This document shows, piece by piece, positions 1 to 55,800 of a stretch of 64,000 nucleotides of DNA. The position numbers were made by a program, and so were the translations under genes. Numbering within the stretch: the stretch's first letter is position 1; the number at the start of each line of letters is the position of its first letter. Under the pieces are notes generated by a model, which saw only the letters and a program-made list of their open reading frames with translations, did no database searches and was not told the origin of the DNA. This DNA comes from Tumebacillus algifaecis (lineage in GTDB: Bacteria; Bacillota; Bacilli; Tumebacillales; Tumebacillaceae), in assembly GCF_002243515.1 (NCBI RefSeq), contig NZ_CP022657.1, forward strand, positions 2,409,001 to 2,473,000, read 5' to 3'.

Positions 1-1
1 T

Positions 2-2800: not shown

Positions 2801-2829
2801 TTAGTTTGCCGTGCACTGGAGGAATGTAG

Positions 2830-16521: not shown

Positions 16522-16598
16522 CCGCAAATGATGCCAAAGGGTGAGCAGGAGATCGACTTACTGTGCTTGCCCTGCGGCTCCCTTCGAGGAGGATAAGG

Positions 16599-17288
16599 AT
16601 GCAAAACCGCGAGACCGATTATGAAAAGTACATCCGTACCACAGAGCTCTTGCAACTCCAAAAGGTGGAGGGAGAATTGTGCTGTGATGATGAGCTCACG
16701 TTTCAGACTGTTCATCAAATCTCAGAACTGCATTTTAAGCTAATTCTCCAACATCTTCGCCTTGCCAAGAGCGCATTGATTGTGGGAGAGAAGCGAACTG
16801 CCAGCCGTCAACTCCATCGAGCGAACATTCACCTGCTTCATTTGCCAACCGTCTTCAAAATCTTAGAGCAGATGGAGCCGACCCATTATCATACCATCCG
16901 TCTGGCGCTCGGGAGCGGGAGCGGGCAGGACTCACCCGGTTTTAATCAAATCTTGCAAGAAGGTCCGCAGCTGTGGGAGCCGTTTGATCAACTGCTGACG
17001 ACTCATTTCATTTCGCTTTTGGAGATCCACCAACAACCGGATAAACATCGAGACTTCTTTGATCTCATTCAAGAGTTGATTAACTTTGATCAAAACTTCC
17101 AGAACTTCCGCTATCAACATTTCATGCTGGTCCGTCGCATGATCGGAATCCAGACCACGAGCTTGAAAGGAGTCCCTGCCAACCAATTGCAGCGCGGTGT
17201 TCGCCAAGAGTTTTTCCCGGAACTCTGGCAAGCGATCTGTGATCAAACCGCAGCAGCAGGGAGTAGTTACAGTGCCTCTACGAGTTGA
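16599..17288 (+). CDS. Tryptophan 2,3-dioxygenase family heme oxygenase
   Basis: A 229-residue protein of the tryptophan 2,3-dioxygenase (TDO) fold. The ATG at 16599 is chosen because GAGGAGG lies just upstream; an earlier ATG at 16563 has no such site. Family marks are VHQISELHFKL (the distal His that contacts substrate is kept), the helix EQMEPTHYHTIRLALG with the substrate-binding Arg, GSGSGQDSPGF, and FRYQHFMLVRRMIG with the His that should be the heme ligand. The usual GTGGSSG loop after that His is replaced by an unlike stretch (TTSLKGVPANQ), so this is a divergent member; the superfamily also includes monooxygenases such as MarE. It starts 77 bp after the NRPS on the same strand. By analogy with dptJ of daptomycin, the likely role is to make kynurenine, or another oxidised tryptophan, as a building block. 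Confidence 0.85.
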   Translation: MQNRETDYEKYIRTTELLQLQKVEGELCCDDELTFQTVHQISELHFKLILQHLRLAKSALIVGEKRTASRQLHRANIHLLHLPTVFKILEQMEPTHYHTIRLALGSGSGQDSPGFNQILQEGPQLWEPFDQLLTTHFISLLEIHQQPDKHRDFFDLIQELINFDQNFQNFRYQHFMLVRRMIGIQTTSLKGVPANQLQRGVRQEFFPELWQAICDQTAAAGSSYSASTS

Positions 17289-34543: not shown

Positions 34544-35791
34544 TTACGGCTGCTCGGCAGGCTTCGGGGGTTCTGTGGTAGCGTTCGCCGCACCCAAGTT
34601 CAGCTTGAACAACGGCAGAGCGAGCAGCATCCCGATAAAGAAGAGACCAGCCGCCAACTCGAACGCAGTGGTCAGCGAGAACATTTTTTTCAGCGGGCCG
34701 GCAAGACTCATCGTCACTACCATCATGCCCATGAACAGCGGGTTCAAAATACCGTTGGCCCGACCGATAAATTCCTCTTCGGTCGTCTTCAACATGATCG
34801 TGTTCACCCCGATATGAATGCACGGTAAGAACAGACCTGCTAAAAACTGCGAGCAAAGCGTCAACACAAAGTTGGTTGACCAGCCGGTGACCGCAGTTGA
34901 GATCGTCACGGCGATCATACCGATGACAAGTAAGGCATGGGGTGGAATCTTCTTGGTCAGGCCGATCACCACACCACCGCCGATCAGCATCGCCGCACCG
35001 TTCGTCATCATCAACCACTGCACGCTTTCTTTGGGCAGACCAAGATTTTCCGTGACGAGAAAGATCGTCAGCGGTTGGATGATCCCCAAGGCCAGACCTG
35101 CAGCGGCAAAGTTGCCACCAAGAATCTTCAGCACCGGTTTGGACATCACGTAGCGGAAGCCATCCTTCATCTCCGTAAAGATCGATGTATCTTTCGCCAC
35201 GTTGTGCTCTTTCTTATCGGCAGGAATCATCGTCAACACAGCTGCAGACGCCAAGAAGGCGATCCCCATGACCCCGATCGACACTTTGATGCCGAAGTTT
35301 TGAAAAACCAGGGTTCCGAGGAACGGACCGATGATCATAAAGATCGACATCATCGTTTGAAACAGCGCCATGCCCATCTGCATCTGATGTTCCGGAACGT
35401 GCTGTTTAAACAGCTTCAACATCGAAGGCTGCGAGAATTGAGACAGGATCGCAGACACCAACGTCGCAAAGAAGATCGCTTGCCAATAGCCGGTCATCAA
35501 CGTCCCGAGCACTGCAAAGATGGACAGTGCACTGAGCACATCGGACCAGATCATCGTCCGCTTCGGACGCCAGCGGTCCGCATAGGCACCACCAATAAAA
35601 GAAAACAAGAAAATCGGGGCAAACTCGGCAACCGAAATCATCGAGACGGCAACTTCATCACCATTGGTCTGCTCCATGACGTACAGCAGCACCGCGAAGT
35701 TGCGCACCCAAATGCCGATTTGCAATAACAATCCAGACAATACGATTACTTGGACGAATCGATTGCGGAAGAAACTCGCCGTATTTGACAT
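34544..35791 (-). CDS. MFS exporter (MFS_3/EntS-like)
   Basis: A 415-residue permease with about 12 membrane helices. Start MSNTASFFRNRF is chosen because a purine-rich SD (GGGGAGTGGG) precedes it; the track frame runs 12 codons further up through that site. GGAYADRWRPKRTMIWSD is the family motif between helices 2 and 3. The overall type is that of drug and siderophore exporters such as EntS and macrolide efflux proteins. It follows hutG by 67 bp with no clear terminator between, yet does not resemble histidine permeases. Its place next to NRPS genes suggests export of the peptide or self-protection; co-transcription with hut may be read-through. Confidence 0.88.
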   Translation of the reverse strand: MSNTASFFRNRFVQVIVLSGLLLQIGIWVRNFAVLLYVMEQTNGDEVAVSMISVAEFAPIFLFSFIGGAYADRWRPKRTMIWSDVLSALSIFAVLGTLMTGYWQAIFFATLVSAILSQFSQPSMLKLFKQHVPEHQMQMGMALFQTMMSIFMIIGPFLGTLVFQNFGIKVSIGVMGIAFLASAAVLTMIPADKKEHNVAKDTSIFTEMKDGFRYVMSKPVLKILGGNFAAAGLALGIIQPLTIFLVTENLGLPKESVQWLMMTNGAAMLIGGGVVIGLTKKIPPHALLVIGMIAVTISTAVTGWSTNFVLTLCSQFLAGLFLPCIHIGVNTIMLKTTEEEFIGRANGILNPLFMGMMVVTMSLAGPLKKMFSLTTAFELAAGLFFIGMLLALPLFKLNLGAANATTEPPKPAEQP

Positions 35792-35858
35792 GTTCTTCCC
35801 ACTCCCCTCACTACAACTAACTTCCATTTCCTAGAATAGCCTTTGTTAACCGTTCTGT

Positions 35859-36830
35859 CTAGCGAACATCACGTTGAGATACACCCGCGAGGAAGGTCAA
35901 CATAAATTGCACGGCCAGCCTTGACGTGACATTGCGCACATCAACGGTCGGGTCGATGCAGACAAAATCAAGCCCTTGCACCTGTGGTAGCGTGCCGAGG
36001 TGGTACAGCGCATCCATCGCATCCCACGGGTTCATCCCGCCCGTGCCGATCGCCGGACAACCGGGTGCAAACGCTTGGTCGATCACGTCCACGTCAAAGC
36101 TTACGTAGAGCACGTCAGTTCCGTCCCCTGCGATTTCAAGCGCTTGGGTCAAAATCGTCTCCATCCCTTGGCGATAGACGTCGCGAGCGGTATAGACGGT
36201 GACACCATGTCCGGTCACATAGTCGTGGTACGGCTTTGAGTTCATGAAGCCGCGAATGCCGATCTGCACGATATTCTTCCCGTCCACGATGCCCGATTCG
36301 AGGATGCCCCGAAACGGTGTACCGTTCGAGACGCCGCCATCCTCGAAGTTGCGCACATCATGGTGAGCATCAAAATGAATGATGCCGACCTTTTGGCCAG
36401 GATGGCGATCGACGAACGCTTTCATCGATGGGCATGTGATCGAATGGTCACCGCCAAAGATGATCGGGATCAGGTCAGGATGCTTTTGATAAAGTGCACG
36501 CAGGCTCGCTTCGATGCGGCGGTGTGACTCGGCGTTATCGGTGACGTGCATCTCGATGTCACCGAGGTCGCGTACCGCCAGACTTTGCAGATCCACCCCG
36601 TATTCGAGCGAGTAGGTGGTGAACGATTTAAAAGCGGTGCGAATGGCGGCCGGAGTGGTCGAGGCACCGGAGACGGAGATCGACGGCTTGGAAAGTGGAA
36701 TTCCGATCACGCCAGCCGTCAGTTGCTCCTCCCCGTCCCATGCCGAGATCCAACGAGCTACCTTCGTTTCCATCTGATCGCGGAATGCCGCTTGGTCCGG
36801 CGTTTTCAAGTGCGGGATCTCATGGCTCAT
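35859..36830 (-). CDS. hutG: Formimidoylglutamase (arginase/ureohydrolase family)
   Basis: A 323-residue enzyme for the last step of histidine use: N-formimidoyl-L-glutamate plus water gives glutamate and formamide. The binuclear manganese site of the ureohydrolase family is visible in GGDHSITCP, HFDAHHDVR and SFDVDVIDQAFAPGCP. Its ATG overlaps the hutI stop codon (ATGA), so the two are translationally coupled. As fourth gene in hutH-U-I-G order its role is secure, despite resemblance to agmatinases. Confidence 0.93.
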   Translation of the reverse strand: MSHEIPHLKTPDQAAFRDQMETKVARWISAWDGEEQLTAGVIGIPLSKPSISVSGASTTPAAIRTAFKSFTTYSLEYGVDLQSLAVRDLGDIEMHVTDNAESHRRIEASLRALYQKHPDLIPIIFGGDHSITCPSMKAFVDRHPGQKVGIIHFDAHHDVRNFEDGGVSNGTPFRGILESGIVDGKNIVQIGIRGFMNSKPYHDYVTGHGVTVYTARDVYRQGMETILTQALEIAGDGTDVLYVSFDVDVIDQAFAPGCPAIGTGGMNPWDAMDALYHLGTLPQVQGLDFVCIDPTVDVRNVTSRLAVQFMLTFLAGVSQRDVR

Positions 36831-38116
36831 CTTGCTTCCTCCTGCACAATCTGGCGCTCCCAGACTACGACTTGACCGTTTTTGATCACACCAAACGTGT
36901 GGTTGATGCCAAAATGGTACGGCAGGTACTTGATGTTCGGCGCGTCAAAAATCGCAAGGTCGGCACGCTTGCCCACTTTGATCGACCCGATGTCGGTCGA
37001 GCGGCCGAGCGCGTTGGCCGCATTGATCGTACAAGCGGTCAAAATCTCCTCCGGCGTCATCTTCAAGTTGAGCGACGCCAGTGCGATGATCAACTGAATC
37101 GACTCGGTTGGGCAGGAACCTGGATTGTAGTCGGTTGATAATGCGACCGGCAGGTTGTACTTGTCGATCATATCCCGGGCACGCGCATGGTTTTGCAAAC
37201 CGAGATTGAACGAAGTGCCTGGCAGAAGCACGGGCGTCACGCCATTGTCGGCCATCTCTTGCAACCCTTCATCGGTGGCCGCCAGCAGATGCTCTGCGGA
37301 GATCGCGCCGATTTCACCTGCCAGTTGCGCACCGCCGAGCGGTTCGATCTCATCGGCATGAATTTTCGGCATCAGGCCATTGCGCTTGCCTTCCATCAGG
37401 ATGCGTCGGGACTGCTCGACGGTAAACACTCCGTGCTCACAAAACACATCGCAAAATTCGGCGAGGAACTCATCGGCGATCTTCGGCAACATTTCGTTGA
37501 CGATCAGATCGACATACTCTTCGGTGCGTCCCTTGTACTCCGGCGGTACCGCATGTGCACCCATGAAGGTGGACACGATATCGACCGGATGCGTGTCATG
37601 CAATTGTTTGGCGACGCGCAACTGCTTCAGCTCATCGGTGGTGGTCAAGCCATAGCCGCTTTTCGCTTCAACTGTGGTTACGCCATTCAGGAGCATTTCG
37701 TTCAGGCTCTTGCGCGCTTTTTTGTACAGCTCCTCTTCGGAAGCGGCGCGAGTCGCTGTGACGGTCGAGAGAATCCCGCCGCCTTGCGCGAGAATCTCCA
37801 GATATGGCACGCCGGAGCGTTTCAGTGCCAGTTCGTGCTCCCGCGAGCCACCGTGCACGAGGTGCGTATGGGGATCGACAAGACCCGGTGTGACCAGACG
37901 GCCGCCGACATCGATCGTTTCAGCGATGGTGACGCCACGCAAGTTCTCCATCACTTCCGCTTCGGTTCCAACATGAACGATGCGCCCTTCGTGAATGGCC
38001 ACCGCCGCCGTTTCGATCTCGATCACCTCGTTCATCTCCGCGCCAAATCGCGGAGCATCGCCGGGCGGCGTGACCAGCCGCCCGATGCCGGTTACCAGCA
38101 AATCAAGTTGTTCCAT
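36827..38116 (-). CDS. hutI: Imidazolonepropionase
   Basis: A 429-residue amidohydrolase that opens imidazolone-5-propionate to formimidoylglutamate. The start MEQLDLL at 38116 is chosen because GAGGAGG stands 6 bp upstream; a start two codons earlier would touch the SD. VDPHTHLVHGGSREHE carries the metal-binding histidines, IHADEIEPLGGAQLA further ligands, and STDYNPGSCPTE the Asp. Length and motifs are standard. It sits between hutU (33 bp gap) and hutG (4-bp overlap). Confidence 0.95.
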   Translation of the reverse strand: MEQLDLLVTGIGRLVTPPGDAPRFGAEMNEVIEIETAAVAIHEGRIVHVGTEAEVMENLRGVTIAETIDVGGRLVTPGLVDPHTHLVHGGSREHELALKRSGVPYLEILAQGGGILSTVTATRAASEEELYKKARKSLNEMLLNGVTTVEAKSGYGLTTTDELKQLRVAKQLHDTHPVDIVSTFMGAHAVPPEYKGRTEEYVDLIVNEMLPKIADEFLAEFCDVFCEHGVFTVEQSRRILMEGKRNGLMPKIHADEIEPLGGAQLAGEIGAISAEHLLAATDEGLQEMADNGVTPVLLPGTSFNLGLQNHARARDMIDKYNLPVALSTDYNPGSCPTESIQLIIALASLNLKMTPEEILTACTINAANALGRSTDIGSIKVGKRADLAIFDAPNIKYLPYHFGINHTFGVIKNGQVVVWERQIVQEEAR

Positions 38117-38149
38117 GCTCATCCTCCTCGCTCGTTCTATCGCTAGCTA

Positions 38150-39817
38150 CTACTCTTGTTCGCGCATCGGGATGCGGATGCCGTGCGTTTCAGCCGTTTC
38201 GATCGCTTCGTCATAACCTGCATCGACGTGACGAATGACGCCCATGCCCGGGTCGGAAGTGAGCACAGCTTGCAGACGCTCCGCCGCTTCAGCGGTGCCA
38301 TCTGCAACGACGACCATTCCCGCATGCAACGAGTAGCCCATACCGACCCCGCCGCCATGATGTACCGAAACCCAGGATGCGCCTGCGGAGGTGTTGATCA
38401 GTGCGTTCAAGATCGCCCAGTCGCCCACTGCGTCAGAACCGTCTTTCATCGCTTCTGTCTCGCGGTTCGGTGAAGCGACAGAACCGCAGTCGAGGTGGTC
38501 GCGCCCGATGACGATCGGAGCCTTCAGTTCCCCATTTTTGACCATTTCGTTGATCGCCAGACCAAACTTGGCACGCTCGCCGTAACCGAGCCAACAGATG
38601 CGGGCCGGGAGACCTTGGAAGGCGATCTTTTCGCCTGCCATCTCGATCCAGCGGCGCAGGTGATCATTTTCTGGGAACAGCTTGAGGATCAGTTCGTCCG
38701 TCTTCTTGATGTCTTCTGGATCGCCAGACAAAGCCGCCCAACGGAACGGGCCTTTGCCTTCGCAGAACAGCGGACGGATGTAGGCCGGAACGAAACCTGG
38801 GAAGTTGAACGCGTCTTGGACCCCTTCATCAAGCGCCACTTGGCGGATGTTGTTGCCGTAGTCGAACACGGTGGAGCCGAGCTTTTGCAGGTCGAGCATC
38901 GCTTGGACATGAACGGCCATGCTTTGCTTGGCCAGGGCGATCAATTTGTCCGGGTCGCTTTGGCGCAGCGCTGCCGCTTCTTCCAATGAATAGCCTACCG
39001 GAATGTAGCCGTTCAGCGGGTCATGGGCCGATGTTTGGTCGGTGACAAAATCAGGCTTGATCCCGCGGCGTACAAATTCCGGATAGATTTCTGCAGCGTT
39101 GCCGAGCAGACCGATCGAAAGCGGACGTCCTTCCGCTTTGGCCTGATTTGCCAGTTCCAGCGCTTCGTCGAGCGTTGTCGCCATCACATCACAGTAGCGG
39201 TGTTGGATGCGGCGTTCGATGCGGGTCGGGTCAATCTCGACGGCGATGACTACGCCTTCGTTCATCGTGACAGCCAGCGGTTGCGCACCACCCATGCCAC
39301 CGAGCCCTGCGGTGAGGGTCAAGGTGCCTTTGAGCGTACCACCCGTCTGTTGGCGGCCTGCTTCAGCAAACGTTTCGTACGTGCCTTGCAGAATGCCTTG
39401 GGTACCGATGTAAATCCAAGAACCGGCCGTCATTTGGCCGTACATCATCAGACCCTTTTGCTCCAGTTCGCGGAAGTGCTCCCAATTCGCCCACGCCGGA
39501 ACGAGCACGGAGTTGGACAGCAGTACGCGCGGTGCGCGCTCATGCGTTTTAAAGACGCCGACCGGCTTGCCCGATTGCACGAGCAGAGTCTCATCGCTTT
39601 CTAGACGCTTCAGTTCACGGACGATCGCGTCAAAAGAAGGCCAGTTGCGCGCAGCTTTGCCGATGCCGCCGTAGACGACAAGGTCTTCCGGACGCTCTGC
39701 CACTTCCGGGTCGAGGTTGTTCATCAACATGCGCAAAGCGGCTTCCTGAACCCAGCCTTTTGCGTTCAATTCGGTACCGCGCGGAGCGCGGATTTCACGT
39801 TTTTGTTGGTTGGACAT
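38150..39817 (-). CDS. hutU: Urocanate hydratase
   Basis: A 555-residue NAD+-dependent enzyme converting urocanate to imidazolonepropionate. The N-terminal [20 protein letters not shown] and [13 protein letters not shown], and [18 protein letters not shown] (NAD site) are hallmarks of the family, and the length is typical. A perfect AAGGAGG precedes the ATG. It lies 36 bp after hutH. Confidence 0.97.
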
Positions 39818-39853
39818 ACGTAATTTCCTCCTTAGGATCGATCATTTCAACTC

Positions 39854-41389
39854 TTACATCAGTTCGCCGGAGATGTTTTCCACGGCTGTGATCCACTCGC
39901 CTTCTAACAGAGCCGCAGCCACCTTTTCAATATCATCGCTGGTCGAGCGATCGGTCAACACCGGCGCCACGATGCCGCGCAACAGGTCGTACAGCTTGCG
40001 CGTTGCCGGAGCCAGCCCGTCTGCGCCAACAAATTCGGCCGCTTCACCAGCACAGATCAGTTCGATGGCCAGAACTTTAGACACGTTGTCAATCACTTGA
40101 GCCGCATGGCGAGCTGCCGTCGTCCCCATCGAGACGTGGTCTTCCTGATTGGCAGAAGACGGGATCGAATCGACAGAAGCCGGATGGGCCAGAACTTTAT
40201 TTTCCGAGACGAGCGAAGCGGCCACATATTGCGGAATCATCATGCCCGACTCCATGCCCGGATTGTGGCTCAAAAACGCCGGAAGCTCGGAGAGGGCAGG
40301 GTTGACCAGTCGCTCCGTGCGGCGCTCCGAAATATTCGCCAACTCGCTCATGCCGATTTTCAAGAAATCCATTGCAAACGCGATCGGCTGTCCATGAAAA
40401 TTGCCGCCGGAGATGACTTTGCCTTCTTCCAAAAAGAGCAGCGGGTTGTCGGTCGCCGAGTTGATCTCGATGGAGATTTTGTCCGCGACATAGGACAACA
40501 CTTGACGCGATGCCCCGTGCACTTGGGGCAGGCAGCGCAGCGAGTAAGCATCTTGGACGCGGATCTCGCCTTGGCCTGTCGTCAGCTTGCTGCCTGCGAG
40601 CAATTTGCGCAGGTTGCTGGCCACACCAATCTGCTCCGGATACGGGCGGACACGATGCACCTCTTCCGAAAAAGCTTCCGGGATGCCGCGCAGACACTCG
40701 ACGGTAAGGGCGGCGATCATGTCGGCCGCCTTGGCGAGACGCTCCGCTTTCACGAAGGTCAAAGTGCCGATCGAAGTCATGATTTGGGTGCCGTTGATCA
40801 GGGCCAGACCTTCTTTGGCCTGCAACTGGATCGGGGTCAGACCGGCCTTCTGCAGAGCCGCTCCGCCAGAAAGGCGTTCCCCTTGGTAATACGCTTCCCC
40901 TTCGCCCATCAATACGAGCGCCAGATGCGACAGCGGTGCGAGGTCACCCGATGCGCCAAGCGAGCCTTGCTCCGGCACGACCGGGTGCACGCCATGATTG
41001 AGGCAATCGATCAGCAGTTGCAGCGTCTCGGTACGAATGCCCGAATATCCTTTTGACAGAGCGTTCGCGCGGAGCATCATCAGCGCGCGCACAGCTGGGA
41101 TCTCCATCGGCTTGCCAACAGCACAGGCGTGCGAGCGGATCAGGTTGACCTGCAGTTGTGCAGCGTCTTCCGGCGAAATCTGTACATCGCTAAATTTGCC
41201 GAACCCGGTAGTGACCCCGTAGACCACCTTCCCAGTCCGTACCAACTCCTCGACCATCTCTCGACAGTCCTTGACGCGCTGCCATGCCTCATCGGCCAGC
41301 GCGACCGGAGCATTTTTAAAGGCGACCTGCGCCACATCTTGCGCCGTCACCTGCACCCCGTCCAACATCACGGTTGTCATCTCTTCCAT
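39854..41389 (-). CDS. hutH: Histidine ammonia-lyase
   Basis: A 511-residue lyase removing ammonia from L-histidine to give urocanate. The self-made MIO cofactor arises from Ala-Ser-Gly in GSLGASGDLAPLSH (about residues 140-153). VYGVTTGFGKF (catalytic Tyr loop) is near residue 55. AAAGGGG precedes the ATG. The tandem order with hutU, hutI and hutG shows a catabolic role rather than an aminomutase for peptide synthesis. The leader carries a large hairpin (41422-41463) between promoter and start codon, hinting at attenuation; no hutP gene is seen. Confidence 0.97.
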   Translation of the reverse strand: MEEMTTVMLDGVQVTAQDVAQVAFKNAPVALADEAWQRVKDCREMVEELVRTGKVVYGVTTGFGKFSDVQISPEDAAQLQVNLIRSHACAVGKPMEIPAVRALMMLRANALSKGYSGIRTETLQLLIDCLNHGVHPVVPEQGSLGASGDLAPLSHLALVLMGEGEAYYQGERLSGGAALQKAGLTPIQLQAKEGLALINGTQIMTSIGTLTFVKAERLAKAADMIAALTVECLRGIPEAFSEEVHRVRPYPEQIGVASNLRKLLAGSKLTTGQGEIRVQDAYSLRCLPQVHGASRQVLSYVADKISIEINSATDNPLLFLEEGKVISGGNFHGQPIAFAMDFLKIGMSELANISERRTERLVNPALSELPAFLSHNPGMESGMMIPQYVAASLVSENKVLAHPASVDSIPSSANQEDHVSMGTTAARHAAQVIDNVSKVLAIELICAGEAAEFVGADGLAPATRKLYDLLRGIVAPVLTDRSTSDDIEKVAAALLEGEWITAVENISGELM

Positions 41390-41421
41390 TTCACGTTCCC
41401 CTTTCAGCGCTTTAGCAAAAG

Positions 41422-41463
41422 AAAGGGACCGGGCAGAAGTTACTCACTTCCCCCGGTCCCTTT
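41422..41463 (-). promoter_or_regulatory. Leader hairpin/terminator upstream of hutH (candidate attenuator)
   Basis: The outer 12-bp stem AAAGGGACCGGG/CCCGGTCCCTTT and an inner stem GAAGT/ACTTC make a stable two-part hairpin 33 bp before hutH. On the hut strand it is followed by TTTCTTTTGC; on the plus strand by six T residues. It lies downstream of a likely hut promoter, as an attenuator would, but could also be a bidirectional terminator. Confidence 0.6.
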
Positions 41464-41567
41464 TTTACAAAAGAGGCAAATATGCGATTGTCTGTGTACT
41501 ACCTGATATGAGTACCTCATCCCAATCACGCGCCTTTGCAATTTCTTTTTAATGTTTCTTATCTTAC

Positions 41568-41597
41568 ATTCTCACATTCTAAGCAACCAGTTGTCAA
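41568..41597 (-). promoter_or_regulatory. Likely promoter of the hut operon
   Basis: TTGACA (41597-41592) and GAGAAT (41573-41568) are 18 bp apart on the minus strand, leaving a leader of roughly 170 nt that contains the hairpin at 41422-41463. Confidence 0.55.
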
Positions 41598-41681
41598 GTG
41601 CGTGCCTTTACACGACGGTCAAGGAGACGATGCATTTTTGCCGCATCGAGCTCCCATGCCGTTGTGCTTTGAGTATCGACT

Positions 41682-42563
41682 TTACAGATCGACCATCTCG
41701 CCGTACGTCTCCGGACGACGATCGCGATAGAATTGCCATTTTTGGCGGACTTCGTAGATCATCTGCTTGTCCATCTCTGCTACCAGCACTTCATCCTGAT
41801 CGCGAGCTGCGACCGCAACCATCTCGCCGCGCGGGTCGGCGAGGTACGATTGACCATAGAACTCGCCCATGTTCCACGGCGCTTCCACGCCAACACGGTT
41901 GATCGCCGCGATGTAGTACCCGTTTGCCACCGCATGGGCAGGCTGTTCTAGCTTCCAAAGGTACTCGGAAGTGCCTGCTACGGTCGCTGACGGGTTAAAG
42001 ACGATCTCCGCGCCTTTGAGCCCCAGCACGCGAGCACCTTCTGGGAAGTGGCGGTCATAACAGATGTAGACGCCGACTTTGGCATATCGGGTGTCAAATA
42101 CGTTGTACCCGAGATTGCCCGGTTTGAAATAGTATTTTTCCCAGAACCCGTGCGGCGGCTCGCCAGCCTCGACGTGCGGGATGTGATGCTTGCGGTATTT
42201 ACCGAGGTAACTGCCATCTGCATCGATCACCGCAGCGGTGTTGTACAGCGTACCGATGCCTTCTTTTTCATAGATCGGCAGGATGATGACCACTTCCAGT
42301 TCCTTTGCCAGCTTCATAAACAGTTGCGTGGTCGGACCCTGTGGAATTTCTTCGGCCGCTTCGTACCATTTCGGAGTTTGTTCTGCGCAGAAGTAAGGGC
42401 CGTAGAAGATCTCCTGCAGGCAGATGATCTTAGCGCCTTGCGAGGCGGCGTCGCGCACCATTTTGATGTGCTTGGCGATGGCCACCTCCTTGTGCACCGC
42501 AACCGGTTCGTCACCGTGAATTTCATGTTTGGCTTGGATAAGGCCGATTTTGACTTTGTGCAT
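41682..42563 (-). CDS. Beta-ureidopropionase (N-carbamoyl-beta-alanine amidohydrolase), nitrilase superfamily
   Basis: A 293-residue carbon-nitrogen hydrolase for the last step of reductive pyrimidine breakdown: N-carbamoyl-beta-alanine (or the beta-aminoisobutyrate analogue) to the free beta-amino acid, CO2 and ammonia. The start MHKVKIGLIQ at 42563 is supported by TAGGAGG. The Glu-Lys-Cys triad is visible: CLQEIFYGPYF, GKYRKHHIPH and VGVYICYDRHFPEGAR. It begins 16 bp after the hydantoinase and is the last gene of the run that starts in the synthetase genes, so its product would be free beta-alanine. Confidence 0.9.
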   Translation of the reverse strand: MHKVKIGLIQAKHEIHGDEPVAVHKEVAIAKHIKMVRDAASQGAKIICLQEIFYGPYFCAEQTPKWYEAAEEIPQGPTTQLFMKLAKELEVVIILPIYEKEGIGTLYNTAAVIDADGSYLGKYRKHHIPHVEAGEPPHGFWEKYYFKPGNLGYNVFDTRYAKVGVYICYDRHFPEGARVLGLKGAEIVFNPSATVAGTSEYLWKLEQPAHAVANGYYIAAINRVGVEAPWNMGEFYGQSYLADPRGEMVAVAARDQDEVLVAEMDKQMIYEVRQKWQFYRDRRPETYGEMVDL

Positions 42564-42579
42564 GGTCGTACAATACCTC

Positions 42580-43965
42580 CTAGGGGCGCTTAAATTTGTT
42601 GCGGCGAATGAAGCGTCCATTGCCTGCCGTACCGACAAATTGTTTGTCGCGAATGACATAGGTGCCGCGCGACAGCACAGAGACCACTTCACCGTGAACT
42701 TCCATGCCTTCAAACGGATTGTAGTCAACGTTCATGTGATGCGTGGTGGCCGAGATCGTGCGGGTGACTTCCGGATTGAAGATGACGATGTCAGCATCAG
42801 AACCGACGGCGATCGTGCCTTTTTTCGGGAACATGCCAAACAATTTGGCCGACTTGGTCGAAGTGATGTCAACAAATTGGTTCAACGAGATGCGCCCTTT
42901 GTGCGCCCCTTCCGAGTACAGGATGCCAAAGCGGTCTTCGATCAGCGGGCCACCGTTCGGAATCTTGGTGAAGTCACCTTTGCCAAGATCTTTTTGCCCT
43001 GCGAAGTTAAACGAACACTGGTCAGAGCCGACCGTTTGCAGAATTCCGTTTTTCAAGGCGCTCCACAGCACCTCCTGGTTCCACTTTTCACGCAACGGCG
43101 GCGACCAGACGTATTTGGCACCTTCAAAGTCCGGTTTTTCCAGACTGGTGATGTCAAGCGTCAGGTACTGCGGGCACGTCTCGCCGTAGACATTCAAGCC
43201 GCGCTCGCGAGCTTCCGCGATGCGCTGTACCGCTTCGGAACAAGAAACATGCACCACATAGAGCTGAGAGTCGGCCAGCGCCGTCAGCGCGATCGCGCGG
43301 CCTGTCGCCTCCCCTTCTGCCACTGGAGGACGGGTATGGGCGTGATAGATCGGGTCTGTGTTGCCTTTTTCCAGCGCTTCCTTGATCAGATAATCGATGA
43401 CATCACCATTTTCAGCATGCACTTGTACCAGCGCGCCCAGTTCTTTCGCGCGGATCAGCGTTTTGAACAGCGTTTCATCGTCCGCTTGGAACACATTTTT
43501 GTAGGCCATAAACACTTTCAGGGACGTGATGCCCTCTTCGTTCACCACCTGCTCCAACTGTTGCAGGACGCTGTCGTTCGCTTCAGCGATCATCAGGTGG
43601 AACCCGTAGTCGATCACCGCTTTGTGATCCGCTTTGGCATGCCAAATTTTGATCGCATCATTCAAGGTCTGGCCTTTGCTGGTCAAGCAAAAGTCGATGA
43701 TCGTCGTCGTGCCACCAAACGCGGCAGCCCGAGTGCCCGTTTCAAAATCATCGGCTGTCGTCGTGCCGCCAAACGGCATGTCGAGGTGGGTGTGCGGGTC
43801 GATGCCGCCCGGGAAGAGATAGCATCCGGAAGCATCGATCACTTCCGCATCGGTCACGTCCAACTTCTGTCCGATCGCGACGACGCTCTCGCCATCGATC
43901 AGCACGTCCGCTTGGTAGGTGTCGGCAGCGGTGACGACGGTGCCGCCTTGGATCAGCTTTTTCAT
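42580..43965 (-). CDS. hydA: Dihydropyrimidinase / D-hydantoinase
   Basis: A 461-residue amidohydrolase opening dihydrouracil or dihydrothymine (and hydantoins) to N-carbamoyl-beta-amino acids. The start MKKLIQGGTVV overlaps the preA stop by ATGA and has AGAGGGG upstream. Metal ligands are visible in FPGGIDPHTHLDMPFGG, the Lys to be carbamylated in ITSLKVFMAYK, His in VQVHAENGD and YVVHVSCSE, and the Asp in VGSDQCSFNF. The location between preA and the beta-ureidopropionase fixes the pathway. Confidence 0.95.
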   Translation of the reverse strand: MKKLIQGGTVVTAADTYQADVLIDGESVVAIGQKLDVTDAEVIDASGCYLFPGGIDPHTHLDMPFGGTTTADDFETGTRAAAFGGTTTIIDFCLTSKGQTLNDAIKIWHAKADHKAVIDYGFHLMIAEANDSVLQQLEQVVNEEGITSLKVFMAYKNVFQADDETLFKTLIRAKELGALVQVHAENGDVIDYLIKEALEKGNTDPIYHAHTRPPVAEGEATGRAIALTALADSQLYVVHVSCSEAVQRIAEARERGLNVYGETCPQYLTLDITSLEKPDFEGAKYVWSPPLREKWNQEVLWSALKNGILQTVGSDQCSFNFAGQKDLGKGDFTKIPNGGPLIEDRFGILYSEGAHKGRISLNQFVDITSTKSAKLFGMFPKKGTIAVGSDADIVIFNPEVTRTISATTHHMNVDYNPFEGMEVHGEVVSVLSRGTYVIRDKQFVGTAGNGRFIRRNKFKRP

Positions 43966-45227
43966 CTGGCAGTTCCCCTCTCTTGTACCAATTCGCCCCA
44001 CGTCATGTGCGGTTTGCCAGTGTCCACCGGAATCATGTCGATGGCACCGTCCACCGGGCAGACCAGCGAACACAGATTGCAGCCGACACAGTCATCTTCG
44101 CGCACTTGCAGGATCTGCTTGCCGGTCGCTTTGTCTTCCACACGGTCGATGCACTGGTGGGACGCGTCCTCGCAGGAGATGTAGCACTTGTTGCAGTTGA
44201 TACACGTCTCCGTGTTGATGCGGGCTGTCACTTTGTAGTTCAGGTTCAACGAGCCCCAGTCGGACATGGTGTGCACCGATTTGCCGACGATCTCGCTGAC
44301 CGAATCGATTCCTTTTTCATCCAAATAGTTGTTGAGGCCATCGATCATATCTTCGACGATGCGGAAGCCGTGATGCATGACGGCGGTGCAGACCTGTACG
44401 TTCGTCGAGCCCATCAGCATAAATTCGACCGCATCGCGCCAACTCGAAATGCCGCCGATGCCAGAGATCGGCAGTGCGACCTGCGAGTCATGGGCGCATT
44501 CTGCGACCATGTTCAGCGCGATCGGTTTGACCGCCGGGCCGCAATAGCCGCCGTGTGCGCCTTTGCCGTCCACGTTCGGTTGCGGCAGCCACGAGTCGAG
44601 ATCGACACCGATCAGCGAGTTGATCGTGTTGATCAAGGAGATCGCATCGGCCCCGCCTTCGCGTGCAGCGCGGGCCGTGTAGCGGATGTCGGTGATGTTC
44701 GGCGTCAGTTTGACGATCACAGGCGTCGTCGCCACCTCTTTGATCCACTCCGTCTGTTGACGCACCAGCTCGGGATGCTGCCCGACGGCCGCCCCCATGC
44801 CGCGCTCCGCCATGCCGTGTGGACAACCGAAATTGATTTCGAGGCCGTCCACCCCGACCGCTTCCACCCGCTTGACGATCTCATGCCAGACTTCGCGAAC
44901 CGGGTCAACCATCAGCGAAGCAACCAAGGCCCGGTCAGGAAAACGCTTTTTCACTTCGGCCATCTCTTTTAAGTTCACTTCTAGCGATCGGTCGGTGATC
45001 AACTCTATGTTGTTCAGCCCCATCAGCCGCTGTGTGCCAACGCGATAGCCGCCAAAGCGGGAGGAGACGTTGACGATCGGGTCGCCGAGCGTTTTCCAGA
45101 CCGCGCCGCCCCAACCTGCTTCAAAGGCGCGCAGGACTTGGTAGCCGGTGTTGGTCGGAGGTGCTGAGGCCAGCCAAAACGGGTTGGGCGACTTGATGCC
45201 GCCCAGTTCAATGCGTAAATCGGCCAT
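43962..45227 (-). CDS. preA: NAD-dependent dihydropyrimidine dehydrogenase, subunit PreA
   Basis: A 421-residue flavin and iron-sulfur subunit reducing uracil or thymine to the 5,6-dihydro form. The N-terminal 300 residues are a dihydroorotate dehydrogenase-like FMN barrel (LASAPPTNTGY, LEINFGCPHGM, ISGIGGISSW). The C-terminal part holds two 4Fe-4S motifs (CINCNKCYISC and CVGCNLCSLVCP). AGAGGAGG precedes the ATG. It follows preT by 15 bp and overlaps hydA. Confidence 0.96.
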   Translation of the reverse strand: MADLRIELGGIKSPNPFWLASAPPTNTGYQVLRAFEAGWGGAVWKTLGDPIVNVSSRFGGYRVGTQRLMGLNNIELITDRSLEVNLKEMAEVKKRFPDRALVASLMVDPVREVWHEIVKRVEAVGVDGLEINFGCPHGMAERGMGAAVGQHPELVRQQTEWIKEVATTPVIVKLTPNITDIRYTARAAREGGADAISLINTINSLIGVDLDSWLPQPNVDGKGAHGGYCGPAVKPIALNMVAECAHDSQVALPISGIGGISSWRDAVEFMLMGSTNVQVCTAVMHHGFRIVEDMIDGLNNYLDEKGIDSVSEIVGKSVHTMSDWGSLNLNYKVTARINTETCINCNKCYISCEDASHQCIDRVEDKATGKQILQVREDDCVGCNLCSLVCPVDGAIDMIPVDTGKPHMTWGELVQERGTAR

Positions 45228-45242: not shown

Positions 45243-46604
45243 TTATACGGACAATGCGGCGGTGCTATGCAGCGCTTCATGGATCGAGCGTGCCGCCTGT
45301 TTGCCTTGTTGAGCGGCCGACACGACCATCGCGTCGGTGCCGCCTTGACCGCCGAAAATAAAGTCGCCAGCTGCGTAGACGCGCGCGCGGGACGTTTCCA
45401 ACGTCGCTTTGTTGAGCGTCGGAATGCCATGCTCATGCTGAAGTCCAAACGCTTCGATCAAAGGTAGCAAGCGGGTTTGACCGATCGCTTTGATCACAAA
45501 ATCAACTTCGATCGTCTTTTCGCTCCCTGCTACTGGCGTAGGTCTGCGGCGGCCCTTCTCATCCGCTTCCCCAAGTTCCATCCCGATCATCTCCACTGCG
45601 CTCACATGTCCGCCTGCACCCAAAATGCGGGTCGGCGCGCTCAACCAGCGGAACTCAACCCCATCTTGTTTGGCAAATTCGTACTCGAAGTCATAAGCGG
45701 TCATCTCATGTTCGGTGCGGCGGTAGTAAATCTGCACCACTTCGGCCCCGAGCCGCTTGGAGCAGGTTGCGGCGTCGATCGCCGTATTTCCCGCCCCGAT
45801 CACCGCCACTTTTTTGCCGACCATTGCGTCGGTCAGCTCCTTGGTTTTCGTATCTTCTACAAAGGCGATCGCGTCGAGCACACCGTCCAACTCTTCGCCT
45901 TCGATGTGCAGTTGCGGCACGGCCCCCATGCCCGGTGCGAGCAAGACCGCATCAAAGCTGGCCAGCAGTTCATCGGCGGAGATATCAGTGCCGACGCGCA
46001 CCCCATAGCGGAACGCAACGCCGAGCGCTTCCACCTGCTCCACCTCCCACTGCGGAATCTCCTGCGGGAGACGGAACGAGACGATGCCGTAGGTGTTGAG
46101 GCCACCTGCACGCTCTTTTGCCTCGAAGACGGTGACCGCGTACCCAAACCGTGCCAATTCGCGGGCGGCAGAAAGTCCGGCTGGACCCGCTCCGACCACC
46201 GCCACACGCAGACCGTTCGATTCCCCAGCTTGAAAGAGCGGCGTTTGCGCCTGCATCGCCCAATCGGTGACATGGCGCTGGAGCAGGCCGATGAGGATCG
46301 CTTTGTCCGATTCACCATTCAGGACGCACGCGCCTTCACAGAGTTCGGACGTAGGGCAGACCCGGGCGCAAGACGCGCCGATCGGATTGGCTTCCATGAT
46401 CGTGCGCGCAGAGCCAAGGAGATTGCCCGTGGCGATTTTTTTGATAAACGACGGGATGTCGATGCCCGTCGGACACGCATGCATGCAAGGAGCATCATAG
46501 CAGTACAGGCAACGGTTCGCTTCGTCCAACACCTCTTTTGGACGCAGCGGCGGCATGACTTCGTAAAAGTTAACGTTCAGCTTCGTGAGCGGATTCGCCA
46601 TCAT
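45243..46604 (-). CDS. preT: NAD-dependent dihydropyrimidine dehydrogenase, subunit PreT
   Basis: A 453-residue FAD- and iron-sulfur-binding electron-input subunit that takes electrons from NADH for PreA. N-terminal cysteine clusters (CLYCYDAPCMHACPTGID and CARVCPTSELCEGAC) bind Fe-S. The FAD motif is VVGAGPAGLSAARELA and the nicotinamide motif VIGAGNTAIDAA. The start is an ATG-ATG pair: the first overlaps the NRPS stop codon as ATGA, the second as TGATG, with a G6 stretch as SD inside the NRPS gene. Ribosomes finishing the synthetase could thus restart on preT. Confidence 0.95.
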   Translation of the reverse strand: MMANPLTKLNVNFYEVMPPLRPKEVLDEANRCLYCYDAPCMHACPTGIDIPSFIKKIATGNLLGSARTIMEANPIGASCARVCPTSELCEGACVLNGESDKAILIGLLQRHVTDWAMQAQTPLFQAGESNGLRVAVVGAGPAGLSAARELARFGYAVTVFEAKERAGGLNTYGIVSFRLPQEIPQWEVEQVEALGVAFRYGVRVGTDISADELLASFDAVLLAPGMGAVPQLHIEGEELDGVLDAIAFVEDTKTKELTDAMVGKKVAVIGAGNTAIDAATCSKRLGAEVVQIYYRRTEHEMTAYDFEYEFAKQDGVEFRWLSAPTRILGAGGHVSAVEMIGMELGEADEKGRRRPTPVAGSEKTIEVDFVIKAIGQTRLLPLIEAFGLQHEHGIPTLNKATLETSRARVYAAGDFIFGGQGGTDAMVVSAAQQGKQAARSIHEALHSTAALSV

Positions 46605-49877: not shown

Positions 49878-52800
49878 CTACTTGCGAGTTCGCTTCGTGC
49901 TGGCCATGCGGTCTCTGACCGCGATTTTCGGCTGGGCGAACTCCTGCTCGTCAGCGGTTCGAATCTGTTCAATCAAGGCGGCCACCTCTTCGATTGTCAC
50001 CGCTTCAAACAGTTGTTTGAGCGGCAGGACAACGCCGAAGCTTTGCTGAATGGCCGTATGCACATGGGTCGCCAATAGTGAATGCCCACCGATTTCAAAA
50101 AAGTTATCGTGAACGCCAATCCCCTCTGTGCGCAGCAGCTGCTGCCAGATTTCGGTCAACCGTTGCTCCGTCTCACTCCGCGGTGCGACGTACGCCCGCT
50201 CTGATGCGGTCGTGCGCTCGGGCACAGGGAGTGCATTGCGGTCGATCTTCTGGTTTGGCGTCAATGGAAACGCGCGCAAGAAAACAAAGTTGCTTGGCAC
50301 CATATAATCGGGCAGTTTGTCTTTGAGCAGGGCGCGCAGCTCGCTGACAGTGGGTGCCTCCTCTGCCGCGATCAGATAGGCGACGAGTCGCTGATCTCCA
50401 GGTGCATCTTCACGGAGCAAAACGAGCGCATCGCTGATCTCCGTATGGCTTTGCAAGACCGCCTCGATTTCCCCCGTCTCGATCCGGAAGCCACGCAGTT
50501 TGACCTGATGGTCGATCCGGCCGTGGAAATCGATCTCACCGTTTGGCAACCAGCGGGTGAGATCGCCCGTTTTGTAGAGCCTTCCATACGGGCTCTCGAT
50601 AAAAGTTTTGGCCGTCAGTTCTTCGCGGTTCAGGTAGCCGCGAGCAAGTCCTACCCCTCCGATGTACAGTTCCCCTGGCACGCCGACCGGAACTGGACGC
50701 AGCGCCCGATCGAGGATGTACAGTCGGTTGTTGGCAAGCGGTCGTCCGATCGGAATCACCTGTGGGTCCGCGGTAAGTTCGACCCGCCAATAGGAAGCGA
50801 AGATACATGCTTCGGTGGGACCGTACATGTTGTAGATCTGTGCGGAGGGCAGTGACTCGGTAATGCGGGCACAAAGCTCATAGGACAACGGTTCTCCTCC
50901 GCACAATAGGTTGCGTAACGACGACCAGTTCCTGAATCCCGCCTGATCGACCAGCAACTTGACCTGCGACGGCACGGTGATGAAAAAGCTGATCTGCCGC
51001 TCTTGCGAAACTTCGAGCAGATACGCTGCATCCGTATGACGTCCCGGTTCTGCGATGACCAGTTCCCCGCCGATCAAGAGCGGCGCGAACAGCTCAACGA
51101 CCGAAACGTCAAACGAAAACGGCGTTTTCAGCAAAAAGCGATCCTGCTCGGTCAAGGAGTTCGTATCGATGAGCCAACGTGTGTTATTGACCACGGAGCG
51201 GTGTGAGAGCATCGCCCCTTTTGGACGACCCGTTGAGCCAGAGGTGTAGATCACATAGGCAAGGTTGTCCGGAGTGACTTGCACCGCCGGAGCGACAGCG
51301 CTCTCCGCTGCGACCAGATCCCACTCGCTATCCAAAGCGATCACGTTCGCCGCTCCTGCATGCGCGGCCAGACGCTCGCGCAGATGGGACTGGGTCAGCA
51401 ACACCGCCGCCTGCGCGTCTTCGATCATGAAGGCGAGACGGTCGTTTGGATAGTCTGGGTCGAGCGGGACGTAGGCACCGCCCGCCTTCAACACCCCATA
51501 GACGGCAACGATCATCTCCAGCGACCGCTCCGTGCAGATTCCGACGCGCACATCGGGGCCGACACCGAGCTTCTGCAGATGGTGTGCCAGTTGGTTGGAA
51601 CGCGCTTGCAGTTCGCCATAGGTCGTGCACTGCTCTTGGTAGCGCAGCGCGATCGCATCAGGCGTTGCATCCGCTTGGCGGTCAAACCATTCGTGAAGGG
51701 TCAATTCCGCCTCCGGTACTTCTCGCTCCGTTTGGTTCCATTCGACGATGATTTTCTCCTCTGCTGTTGCTGAGATCAGGTTGTAGTCACAGATTTGTCG
51801 GTCGATGTTCTCGGTGATGCTTTGCAACAAGCTACAGAAGTGAGCGAGCATCGATTCGATCGTCGCCCGATCAAACAGATCGGCATTGTATTCGAACACC
51901 CCGCGCAGACCGTTTTCGTTATCGACCATGTTGACAACAAAATCGTAGTCGATCGATTCCTTTTCCACGCCGAGGCGCGTCAGCATCATGCCTGGCAACT
52001 GCACCTTCAGCCCTTCCACCTGTAGCGCGGAGCCCGGCGTATTCAACAGGGCGAACACCGCCTGCACCAGCGTGGCATGGGAGGTGCTGCGCTCTGGCCG
52101 CACCTCTTCGACCAGTCGTTCAAACGGCACGTCCTGATTCGCATAGGCGTCGAGCGTGGTACGTTTGACGCGGGCGAGCAGGTCGCGAAACGTCGGATTG
52201 CCAGACAGATCGGTGCGCAGCACGATCGTGTTGACGAAAAATCCGATCAGCCCTTCCACCTCTTCACGGGTGCGGTTGGCCACAGGCGAGCCGAGCAAGA
52301 TGTCATCTTGGCCGGAATAGCGCGACAACAGCGTGTTGAACGCCGCGAGCAACAGCATGTACAAAGTGACCCCTTCTTGCTGGCAGAGCTTGTGCAGATC
52401 GTCTGACAGCGTTCTCGGCACTTCAAACGCCAACGATTGGCCTCGAAAGGTCTGAGCGGCTGGCCGCGGCCGATCGGTCGGCAGTTGCAGGACGGGCAGC
52501 GAGCCAGCTAGCTGCTCGCGCCAATAGGTGAGCTGTTCTTGGAGCAGTTCACCTTGTAGCCACTCGCGCTGCCACACGGCAAAGTCAGCATATTGAACGG
52601 GCAATTCGGCAAGCTGTGACGGCTTGCCATGCGCATGGTGATCGTACAGGTCCAGCGTCTCCTGATAGATGCGGCTCATCGACCAGCCATCGGTGATGAT
52701 GTGATGCATGATCAGCACCAAGATGTGGTCTGCTTCTGACAAGCGCAGAAGCGTCAGCGAAAAGGGAGGCACTACATCTAGCTGGAACGGTCGTTTGTAC

Positions 52801-55800
52801 AGTTCAGCGATGCGTTGCTGCGCATGCGGGAATCGCTCCGATTCGGGCAGGTCTTGCAGGTCGATCAAATCGAGTGTCCGCGGCTGGTACGGCAGTATTT
52901 TCTGCACCAGTTTGCCTTCTGTCATCAGGAAGGTGGTACGCAGATTTTCATGGCGGGAGATCAGATCATTGAACGCCGCCTGCAGAGCAGCCAAGTCGAT
53001 CGCGCCTTCGATGCGTACGACTTCCGGGATGTGATAGGTCGGCGTGCCTGGAGAAAGTTGTTCGAAGAACCAGAGACGCTCCTGCGACGATGACATCGGC
53101 AATTGCTCGGTGCGGGGCTGTGGTAGCACTGGCCGTGTCTGCACACCGCGCGTGTCCCGCTTCGCCACTTCGATCTGTACTGCCAACGCGTGAAGCGTCG
53201 GCGTTTCAAAAAAGAGTTTTAACGGCAACTGCACATCGAACGCTCGGCGCACGCGCGATAAGATTTGCGTCGCCAACAGCGAGTGACCGCCAAGCTCAAA
53301 GAAATTTGCCGTGGCGCTCACCCGTTCCAAGCGCAGCACTTCCTGCCAAATCCCAGCCAATTCCGCTTCGACGCCAGTGCGTGGCGCCACAAACGTCTGC
53401 TCTGCCAGTCCTTGACCTCGATCGGGCGCCGGAAGCGCCTGTCGATTGACCTTCCCGCTTGGTGTGAGCGGCAAAGCATCGAGCATGACGAACGCAGACG
53501 GCGCCATATATTCGGGAAGTTTGTTGAGCAAAAAGAGTCTCAGGTCACCTGCGCTCAGCTCTCGTCCCACATGTGCGACCGTGTAAGCGACGAGGCGCTT
53601 CTCGCCTGGGATGTCTTCGCGGGCGGTCACGACTGTCGAGTGCACTCCGTCATGTTGAACCAGTGCCGCTTCAATCTCACCCAGCTCGATGCGGAAGCCG
53701 CGTATCTTGACCTGATTGTCGATTCGTCCCAAATACTCGATGTTGCCGTCTGGCAACCAGCGCACGATGTCCCCCGTCTTGAACAGACGTCCTGTCCCAA
53801 ACGGATTGGGCACAAACCGTTCCGCCGTCAAATCGGGCCGCTGATAATACCCTCGTGCCAACACAGCACCGCCAGCGTGCAATTCGCCTGGCACGCCGAT
53901 CGCAGTCTGCTGCATGTTGCGGTCGAGGATGTAAAGTTCTGCGTTGGCAATCGGACGTCCGATCGGGATGTTGACCGCATCATGCGACACCGCTTCCGTC
54001 TCGTACCAGGTGACATCGGCCGCGACTTCGGTCGAGCCATATAGATTGAGCAAAAGCGCTGTCGGCACCGCTTTTTGGAAGCGCTGCGTCAGTTCGACCG
54101 TCAGCGCTTCCCCACTGCAAACCCAAAAGTTCAGGTCGGGCAACTCTTTTTGCAGATCGTCATAGCTGTCAAGCAACGCGCGCAATAAGGACGGCACGAG
54201 CACGATCCGTGTCACGCGTTGCGTTCGCAGGGCCGGAACAAAGTGCTCAATGTCTTTGACTGCCAAATCAGAGAAGATCACGAGCGGCACGCCTTGCAGG
54301 AGCGGCCCCCAGATCTCCCAGATCGAATCACCGAAATTGAGCGACGTTTTCTGCGCGCACACCTCGCCCGAAGCAAACGGGTAACGCTCCCACATCCAGT
54401 GGAAGCGGTTGACCATCGCGCGGTGCGTGCCTTCGACCCCTTTCGGTTGGCCTGTCGAGCCCGACGTGTAGAGGACGTACATCACGCTGCCGGCGTCCGA
54501 TTTGACGTCCAGCCCCGCCGTGCTCTCCTTGGCGATTTCAGCCCAGTCGGCATCGAGGCAAATCGTTTGGGCATCGTGAACGGGCAGTCGCTCGAGCACG
54601 CTGGCTTCGGTGAGCAACAGGCGGACAGCAGAGTCCTGCAACATGTACGCTTTGCGTTCCTCCGGATAGCCGGGATCGATGGGAACATACGCTGCCCCCG
54701 CCTTGAGAATGCCGAGCAGCCCGATGATCATGGCAGGCGTTCGCTCCATCGAAATCCCGACCAGCGTTTCCCTCTCCACGCCCTGCTTCTGCAGGAATCG
54801 CGCCACTTGGTTCGCCCGCTCCTCCACTTCGCGAAAGGACAAGCTCTCATTTTCAAACAGGAGCGCAGGGGCATCTGGCGTTCTTGCGGCTTGCGCGGCA
54901 AACAGTTCAGGCACCGTCGCATCCTTTGGAAAATCGGCGGTCGGCCCGTTCCATGCTCCGGCACACAAATCGATCTCCCGCTCAGTGAGCAAAGACAGCG
55001 TGGCGATCGGTTGGTCGGCATCGCTCAAGATGCTGTGCAACAAGTTTTGGAAGTGTGCACCCATGCGTTCGATCGTCGCTCGGTCGAACAGGTCGGTGTT
55101 GTATTCGAATTTCACGAGCAGTCCCGCCTCTTTTTGCATCACATAAAGCGAGATGTCAAACTTGGACGTACCGCTGTCCAATTCGCGGGCTTGCAACTGC
55201 AAACCTGGCAGTTTCAGCTCGGGCACTGGGGCATTTTGCAATGCGAACAACACTTGGAACAACGGGGAAAAGCTCATGTTGCGCTCAGGTTGCAGGTGCT
55301 CGACCAATTTTTCAAATGGCAGGTCCTGGTTGGCAAACGCGCCGACCGCCGTCTGTTTCACGCGGGAGAGCAGACTGCGAAACGACAGGTCACCGCTGAC
55401 ACCTGTGCGCAGGACGATCGTGTTGACAAAAAAGCCGATCATCCCTTCGATCTCCGCTTTGTTGCGGTTGGCGATCGGGGAGCCTACTGAGATGTCCTCC
55501 TGCATGGTATAGCGATAGAGCAATACTTTAAAGGCGGATAGCAGTGTCATGTAAAGCGTGACATCTTCTCGTTTGCTGAACGCTTCTAAGCGCTGCTCCA
55601 ATGCTTTGGGCACCCAAAAATCGTACGTTGCACCTGCAAAAGTCTGCATCGCCGGGCGCGGGCGGTCGGTAGGCAGATGAAGGGTCGTCAAGCCTTGGCC
55701 CAGCTGCTCCTGCCAATATCCAAGCTGCTTTTGCAACACCTCGCCTTGCATCCATTCCCGCTGCCAGTGTGCAAAATCGCCGTACTGCACGGGAAGTTCG

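Follow-up and report, generated by a model that had tools for sequence, protein, structure and literature searches.

Pyrimidine-degradation genes behind an NRPS

The window, a 64,000-nucleotide stretch of Tumebacillus algifaecis contig NZ_CP022657.1 (positions 2,409,001 to 2,473,000), contains a PKS gene (P0002) and two NRPS genes (P0001 and P0003) that are followed by preT, preA and the genes for a dihydropyrimidinase and a beta-ureidopropionase. All seven have the same orientation, and no gap between them exceeds ~35 nt (Table 1). P0003 and preT share 4 nt at the stop of the former and the start of the latter, preA and the dihydropyrimidinase gene likewise overlap by 4 nt, and the preT/preA gap is 15 nt. 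The overlap of the pathway genes with an NRPS gene suggests that the two sets are translationally coupled.

Table 1 Positions of the features within the window and the basis on which each was assigned
Feature	Position	Strand	Basis and remarks
PKS P0002	56447..61033	-	KS-AT-KR-ACP; directly upstream of P0001
NRPS P0001	49878..56423	-	2181 aa; C-A1(predicted beta-amino acid)-PCP-C-A2(DVVILGMIFK)-PCP
A1 adenylation domain of P0001	53409..54962	-	Pfam AMP-binding and AMP-binding_C, code extraction, tree; predicted beta-Ala / beta-aminoisobutyrate type
FGDSIWE motif of A1	54315..54335	-	Gly235 codon 54330-54332, Asp236 codon 54327-54329; includes Trp239
NRPS P0003	46601..49843	-	C-A(DVFHYALIFK)-PCP; downstream of P0001; stop overlaps preT start
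preT	45243..46604	-	Dihydropyrimidine dehydrogenase NAD(P)-flavin subunit; named by similarity and position beside preA, no equivalog model above cut-off
preA	43962..45227	-	Dihydropyrimidine dehydrogenase catalytic subunit; NF006183, 678 bits against a cut-off of 335
Dihydropyrimidinase	42580..43965	-	TIGR02033, 690 bits against a cut-off of 393
Beta-ureidopropionase, nitrilase type	41682..42563	-	Best solved match 2vhh
hutH-hutU-hutI-hutG and MFS transporter	34544..41389	-	Promoter-like site 41597-41568; strong terminator-like site 34524-34497
NRPS P0004	28059..34436	-	A(DMLQIGAVWK)-PCP-C-A(DDCTGSTIDK)-PCP-C; conserved neighbour

Together, PreTA, dihydropyrimidinase and beta-ureidopropionase make up the whole reductive pyrimidine pathway, which leads from uracil to beta-alanine and from thymine to 3-amino-2-methylpropionate (PMC7459860). 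The metal ligands and carbamylated-Lys motif of the dihydropyrimidinase are intact, as is the Glu-Lys-Cys triad of the beta-ureidopropionase, and preA is single-copy in the genome. The structure 2vhh, listed as CG3027-PA, is presumably Drosophila beta-alanine synthase; the next solved structures matched by the beta-ureidopropionase are N-carbamoylputrescine amidases and beta-ureidopropionases.

The role of P0004 in making the P0001 product is uncertain. Its second A domain (near 30824) carries Asp at both 235 and 236 (FDDAACE), with a code identical in the congeners. A tryptophan 2,3-dioxygenase-like gene (16563-17288, plus strand) is located right after a four-module, TE-ended NRPS (2830-16521). 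Its match is N-terminal only and below the equivalog cut-off, and it might supply a kynurenine-type residue.

Pocket code and relatives of the A1 domain

A1 comprises approximately residues 488-1005 of P0001. An earlier sequence-only reading had placed an adenylation domain at 53435-54925, matching the boundaries obtained here, and had proposed that the FGDSIWE motif carries its Asp at position 236, not 235. Code extraction confirmed this placement: in GrsA numbering the motif corresponds to F234 G235 D236 S237 I238 W239 E240, and the alignment is ungapped across this region against both GrsA and LgrA (PDB). The complete pocket aligned to GrsA consists of G235, D236, W239, V278, V299, S301, L322, A330, D331 and K517, giving the code GDWVVSLADK. 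The pocket numbering, based on a GrsA fragment, was checked independently on the Alteromonas plasmid pAMDE1. The identical script reproduces the published pAMDE1 codes (NC_019394; PMC3777966 Table 1), including VDATVSIADK for pAMDE1-108-A1, a BlmIV homologue annotated as beta-Ala (PMC3777966). This homologue represents the BlmIV code throughout, because text searches on the codes gave no paper: none mentioning VDWVISLADK, VDWVVSLADK or GDWVVSLADK was found in the literature text searches. An AlphaFold2 model of the A domain (six sequences) has a mean pLDDT of 66, falling below 50 at the pocket loop, which is too low for pocket analysis or a fold search.

The remaining pocket residues (W, V, V, S, L, A, D, K) fit the beta-alanine type, as had been suggested, and the code differs from VDWVISLADK only at positions 235 and 299. 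The alignment with a characterised beta-Ala domain that had been called for shows D236, V299, S301, A330, D331 and K517 to be shared with VDATVSIADK. A1 thus resembles the bleomycin-family beta-Ala domains (BlmIV, pAMDE1-108-A1; PMC3777966) in these residues and in having its Asp at 236 and not 235. It is unlike pAMDE1-108-A1 in having Gly for Val235, Trp for Ala239, Val for Thr278 and Leu for Ile322, with 35% core identity. The displaced Asp is no anomaly, as Asp236 without Asp235 is an already published signature of beta-Ala A domains (pAMDE1-108-A1, the BlmIV homologue; PMC3777966). Given the published VDATVSIADK, a beta-alanine code lacking Asp235 is the normal state of a beta-alanine domain.

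The GDWVVSLADK code is unchanged in two congeners, whose A1 domains are 79-80% identical, and also occurs in an Acidobacteria MAG (locus L003). The corresponding domain of a Legionella MAG has GDWVISIADK, and cyanobacterial domains have VDWVVSLADK, VDWVISLADK or VDWVISLANK. Masking the pocket columns and the FGDSIWE region leaves 12 of the 13 Asp236 domains in a single group. Its support is moderate, with an SH-aLRT of 89 that stays under the starred level. The group includes one IRW domain, and the long-branched pAMDE1 domain falls outside it. The recurrence of the code in two congeners, together with the clustering of Asp236 domains on the masked tree, argues that the A1 code is not a chance occurrence. 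By all sequence features testable here, A1 appears to be a beta-amino-acid-type domain that groups with BlmIV-like beta-alanine domains. The code and the Asp236 tree group also support, at code level, the predicted beta-alanine-type specificity of the earlier reading. It is very improbable that A1 activates another beta-amino acid, or an acid lacking an amino group, and resembles these domains by coincidence. Such a reading could draw on the fact that the closest characterised code compared (VDATVSIADK) shares 6/10 positions, but the neighbours in the same clade carry VDWVISLADK or VDWVVSLADK, Asp236 and Lys517 are both kept, and the adjoining pathway makes precisely a beta-amino acid.

When 398 evenly sampled genomes of the phylum were searched for DNA encoding F[GV]Dx[IVM]WE, matches other than the P0001 gene came only at chance rate, so this type of A domain looks rare in the phylum. 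A contig scan of genomes yielded nine loci, five of them useful. The other loci with Asp236 domains (cyanobacteria, Acidobacteria, Legionella) are without pyrimidine pathway genes nearby. The VDWVISLADK domain of a Gloeocapsopsis dulcis plasmid (L107, 4022-10914) comes after a putative alkoxymalonyl-ACP gene set (3-hydroxyacyl-CoA dehydrogenase, ACP, acyl-CoA dehydrogenase and HAD-IIIC), which siderophore receptor genes adjoin.

Conservation of the arrangement and loss of the downstream enzymes

The order PKS-NRPS-NRPS-preT-preA-dihydropyrimidinase-beta-ureidopropionase is kept in both available congeners. The P0003/preT overlap is identical in both, despite divergence of the NRPS proteins to ~69% identity. 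The four pathway enzymes are 84-93% identical between congeners and mostly 60-84% identical to those of outgroups. As the three genus members share one history, they are counted as one evolutionary event and not three. For comparison, 74 outgroup loci of the class were sampled, one per genome (14 + 60). None has the pathway beside an NRPS (0/74), and 64 carry an aminotransferase and/or a (methylmalonate-)semialdehyde dehydrogenase within ~10 kb of it. A single outgroup locus (L133) has a PKS neighbour. This locus (G488, 1-15111), from another genus of the class, contains a complete catabolic pyd operon with aminotransferase and permease directly upstream of a discrete-AT PKS cluster. Pyrimidine breakdown and secondary metabolism may have become linked there independently, or the adjacency may be due to chance.

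Within P0001, the A2 region (49878-53408, around 51248) has been swapped between species, with 51% identity and a code of DVVILGMIFK versus DLFNNALTYK (compared with L037:18386 and L040:17659). The A1 domain beside it is frozen, at 83% identity and with its code constant. P0001 hence offers a natural case of A-domain exchange adjoining a frozen module. The constancy of A1 while A2 is replaced suggests that the beta-amino acid is an invariant part of the P0001 product.

The pyd operon of Bacilli consists of preTA, dihydropyrimidinase, beta-ureidopropionase, an aminotransferase, a (methyl)malonate-semialdehyde dehydrogenase and an NCS1 permease. The A1 locus is like it in encoding the four enzymes that lead from a pyrimidine to the beta-amino acid, with their active sites kept. 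It is unlike it in that the genes are overlap-linked to NRPS/PKS genes and that orthologues of the last two enzymes are lost from the genome. In whole-genome searches, orthologues of the beta-Ala aminotransferase and semialdehyde dehydrogenase were present in 7/7 pathway-bearing outgroup genomes and absent from all three genus genomes (this one and two congeners), and they were likewise absent from two preA-less family members. The best aminotransferase in the genus has ~37% identity, and no dehydrogenase was found at E<=1e-100. This genome retains weaker class-III aminotransferases (33-37% identity), which could still burn beta-alanine. Given the absence of both orthologues, the beta-amino acid appears to be the end point of the pathway in the genus, and since the downstream enzymes were sought and not found, it would be inappropriate to class the gene set as a complete catabolic operon.

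An NCS1-family permease gene directly follows the beta-ureidopropionase gene in both congeners (L038:7969-9483, L041:7237-8751). This genome lacks the pyrimidine permease, and the next gene, hutH, comes after ~290 bases (41389-41682). In all three genus genomes the hutHUIG genes and the MFS transporter separate the pyrimidine genes from another NRPS. This block is probably a bystander and a separate transcription unit: it forms a conserved catabolic set of its own, in the congeners a distance of ~9-24 kb separates it from the pathway, and in this genome it is bounded by promoter-like and terminator-like sites. Other genomes that were checked have hut and pyd on different contigs or far apart. 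Two further roles for hut were considered and rejected. HutH is not taken to be an aminomutase making a beta-amino acid, as it scores 716 bits, enough to pass the equivalog model for hutH, and shares 81-94% identity with the single-copy hutH family-wide. Nor is hut regarded as part of the NRPS operon, in view of the promoter-like site before hutH, the terminator-like site before P0004 and the separation of hut from pyd in congeners.

The genome also encodes panD elsewhere, and the pyrimidine pathway is thus not needed for CoA. The main rival reading is that A1 uses PanD-derived beta-alanine, with the pyrimidine genes being an ordinary nitrogen-scavenging operon that stands behind the NRPS by chance. 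Consistent with this, hut is a second nitrogen-scavenging neighbour, the identity of the enzymes between congeners is that expected of housekeeping genes, and the congeners retain a pyrimidine permease beside the beta-ureidopropionase. We nevertheless consider this account unlikely: the 4-nt overlap of NRPS stop and preT start is kept in three species, of the pathway-bearing genomes only those of this genus have lost the aminotransferase and dehydrogenase, no outgroup locus places the pathway next to an NRPS, and hut and pyd stand apart in relatives.

A proposed pyrimidine supply for the assembly line

The locus is probably best explained by a catabolic pyrimidine pathway that has been truncated so as to stop at the beta-amino acid, and that now feeds the A1 module of P0001, with the run of genes presumably co-transcribed. 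PreT and PreA would reduce uracil (or thymine), the dihydropyrimidinase would open the reduced ring, and the beta-ureidopropionase would decarbamoylate the resulting compound to beta-alanine (or beta-aminoisobutyrate). A1 would adenylate beta-alanine, or its 2-methyl homologue beta-aminoisobutyrate, with Asp236 holding the beta-amino group and Lys517 the carboxylate, and would load it onto its own PCP. The C domain preceding A1 would then join the beta-amino acid to the polyketide-extended chain delivered by the KS-AT-KR-ACP of P0002. With the aminotransferase and semialdehyde dehydrogenase gone, the pathway would be uncoupled from catabolism in this genus, and its flux would be directed to the predicted product.

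Several lines of evidence argue for such a supply. The beta-Ala-type code and the clustering of Asp236 domains point to a matching substrate, the gene run with its 4-nt overlaps is conserved, and A1 is frozen where A2 is replaced. The outgroup loci present the reverse picture, with no NRPS linkage among 74 and the aminotransferase/dehydrogenase in 64. The downstream enzymes are missing in the genus and present in all seven outgroups, the catalytic motifs of dihydropyrimidinase and beta-ureidopropionase are intact, and panD frees the pathway from any need in CoA synthesis. Weighing against it, the genus constitutes a single evolutionary event, the weaker class-III aminotransferases could still consume beta-alanine, and a dedicated source is not strictly needed where PanD already makes this compound. 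Furthermore, the adjoining hut genes, with their role in nitrogen scavenging, would also suit a catabolic island, the permease of the congeners is missing here, and Asp236 domains elsewhere occur without pathway genes nearby.

As PanD gives beta-alanine only, a dedicated pyrimidine route makes beta-aminoisobutyrate a more attractive candidate. A possible, if tentative, refinement of the supply model is that A1 uses (R)- or (S)-3-amino-2-methylpropionate from thymine, Gly235 giving room for the methyl group as the earlier reading had suggested. The pathway yields this compound and PanD cannot, the Val-to-Gly change at 235 is frozen in the genus, and a thymine origin has been postulated for the same residue in other peptides (PMC12305651, PMC7459860). 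In contrast, domains without pathway genes nearby can have either Gly or Val at 235, and the low pLDDT of the AlphaFold2 pocket loop (<50) makes the A1 pocket model unusable. Gly235 and Val235 are intermixed on the masked tree, which implies that residue 235 has changed more than once. The full proposal, in which the thymine pathway is cut after its third step, joined to the NRPS by the overlap and feeding beta-aminoisobutyrate to a Gly235/Asp236 pocket that selects the methylated residue, is put forward as doubtful.

Precedents exist for parts of the supply model. For surugamide F, the cadasides and the kasichelins, too, an NRPS module takes a beta-amino acid that has been proposed to come from pyrimidine degradation (PMC12305651, PMC7459860), but the genes of those clusters, for an aldehyde dehydrogenase, an alpha/beta hydrolase and a P450, match such a route only loosely, in contrast to the four textbook enzymes seen here. 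With regard to the KasF-like aldehyde dehydrogenase of such clusters, the window has an aldehyde dehydrogenase gene (26210-27781, plus strand) whose product scores slightly under the cut-off of a succinate-semialdehyde dehydrogenase model. Dedicated supply of a beta-alanine-like unit to an assembly line is also known from cryptophycin, where CrpG decarboxylates 3-methylaspartate (PMC7459860), and from vicenistatin with VinN/VinO (PMC7756342). Unlike the route proposed here, both are aspartate-based, and their enzymes are unrelated to those of the pyrimidine route. No paper describing the four textbook pyrimidine enzymes in an NRPS operon was found in the literature searched.

At this locus all four enzymes of the pyrimidine route share a gene run with a fitting A domain, without the enzymes that would burn their product. 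If the supply model is correct, a waste pathway would have been converted to a building-block supply line, and a dihydropyrimidinase gene beside an NRPS with no aminotransferase would provide a rule for genome mining. Were the thymine version to apply, the breakdown of nucleic acids would feed a secondary metabolite, and a textbook thymine-to-peptide route would be seen within a single operon for the first time. The locus would furthermore offer a system for asking whether residue 235 separates beta-alanine from beta-aminoisobutyrate pockets.
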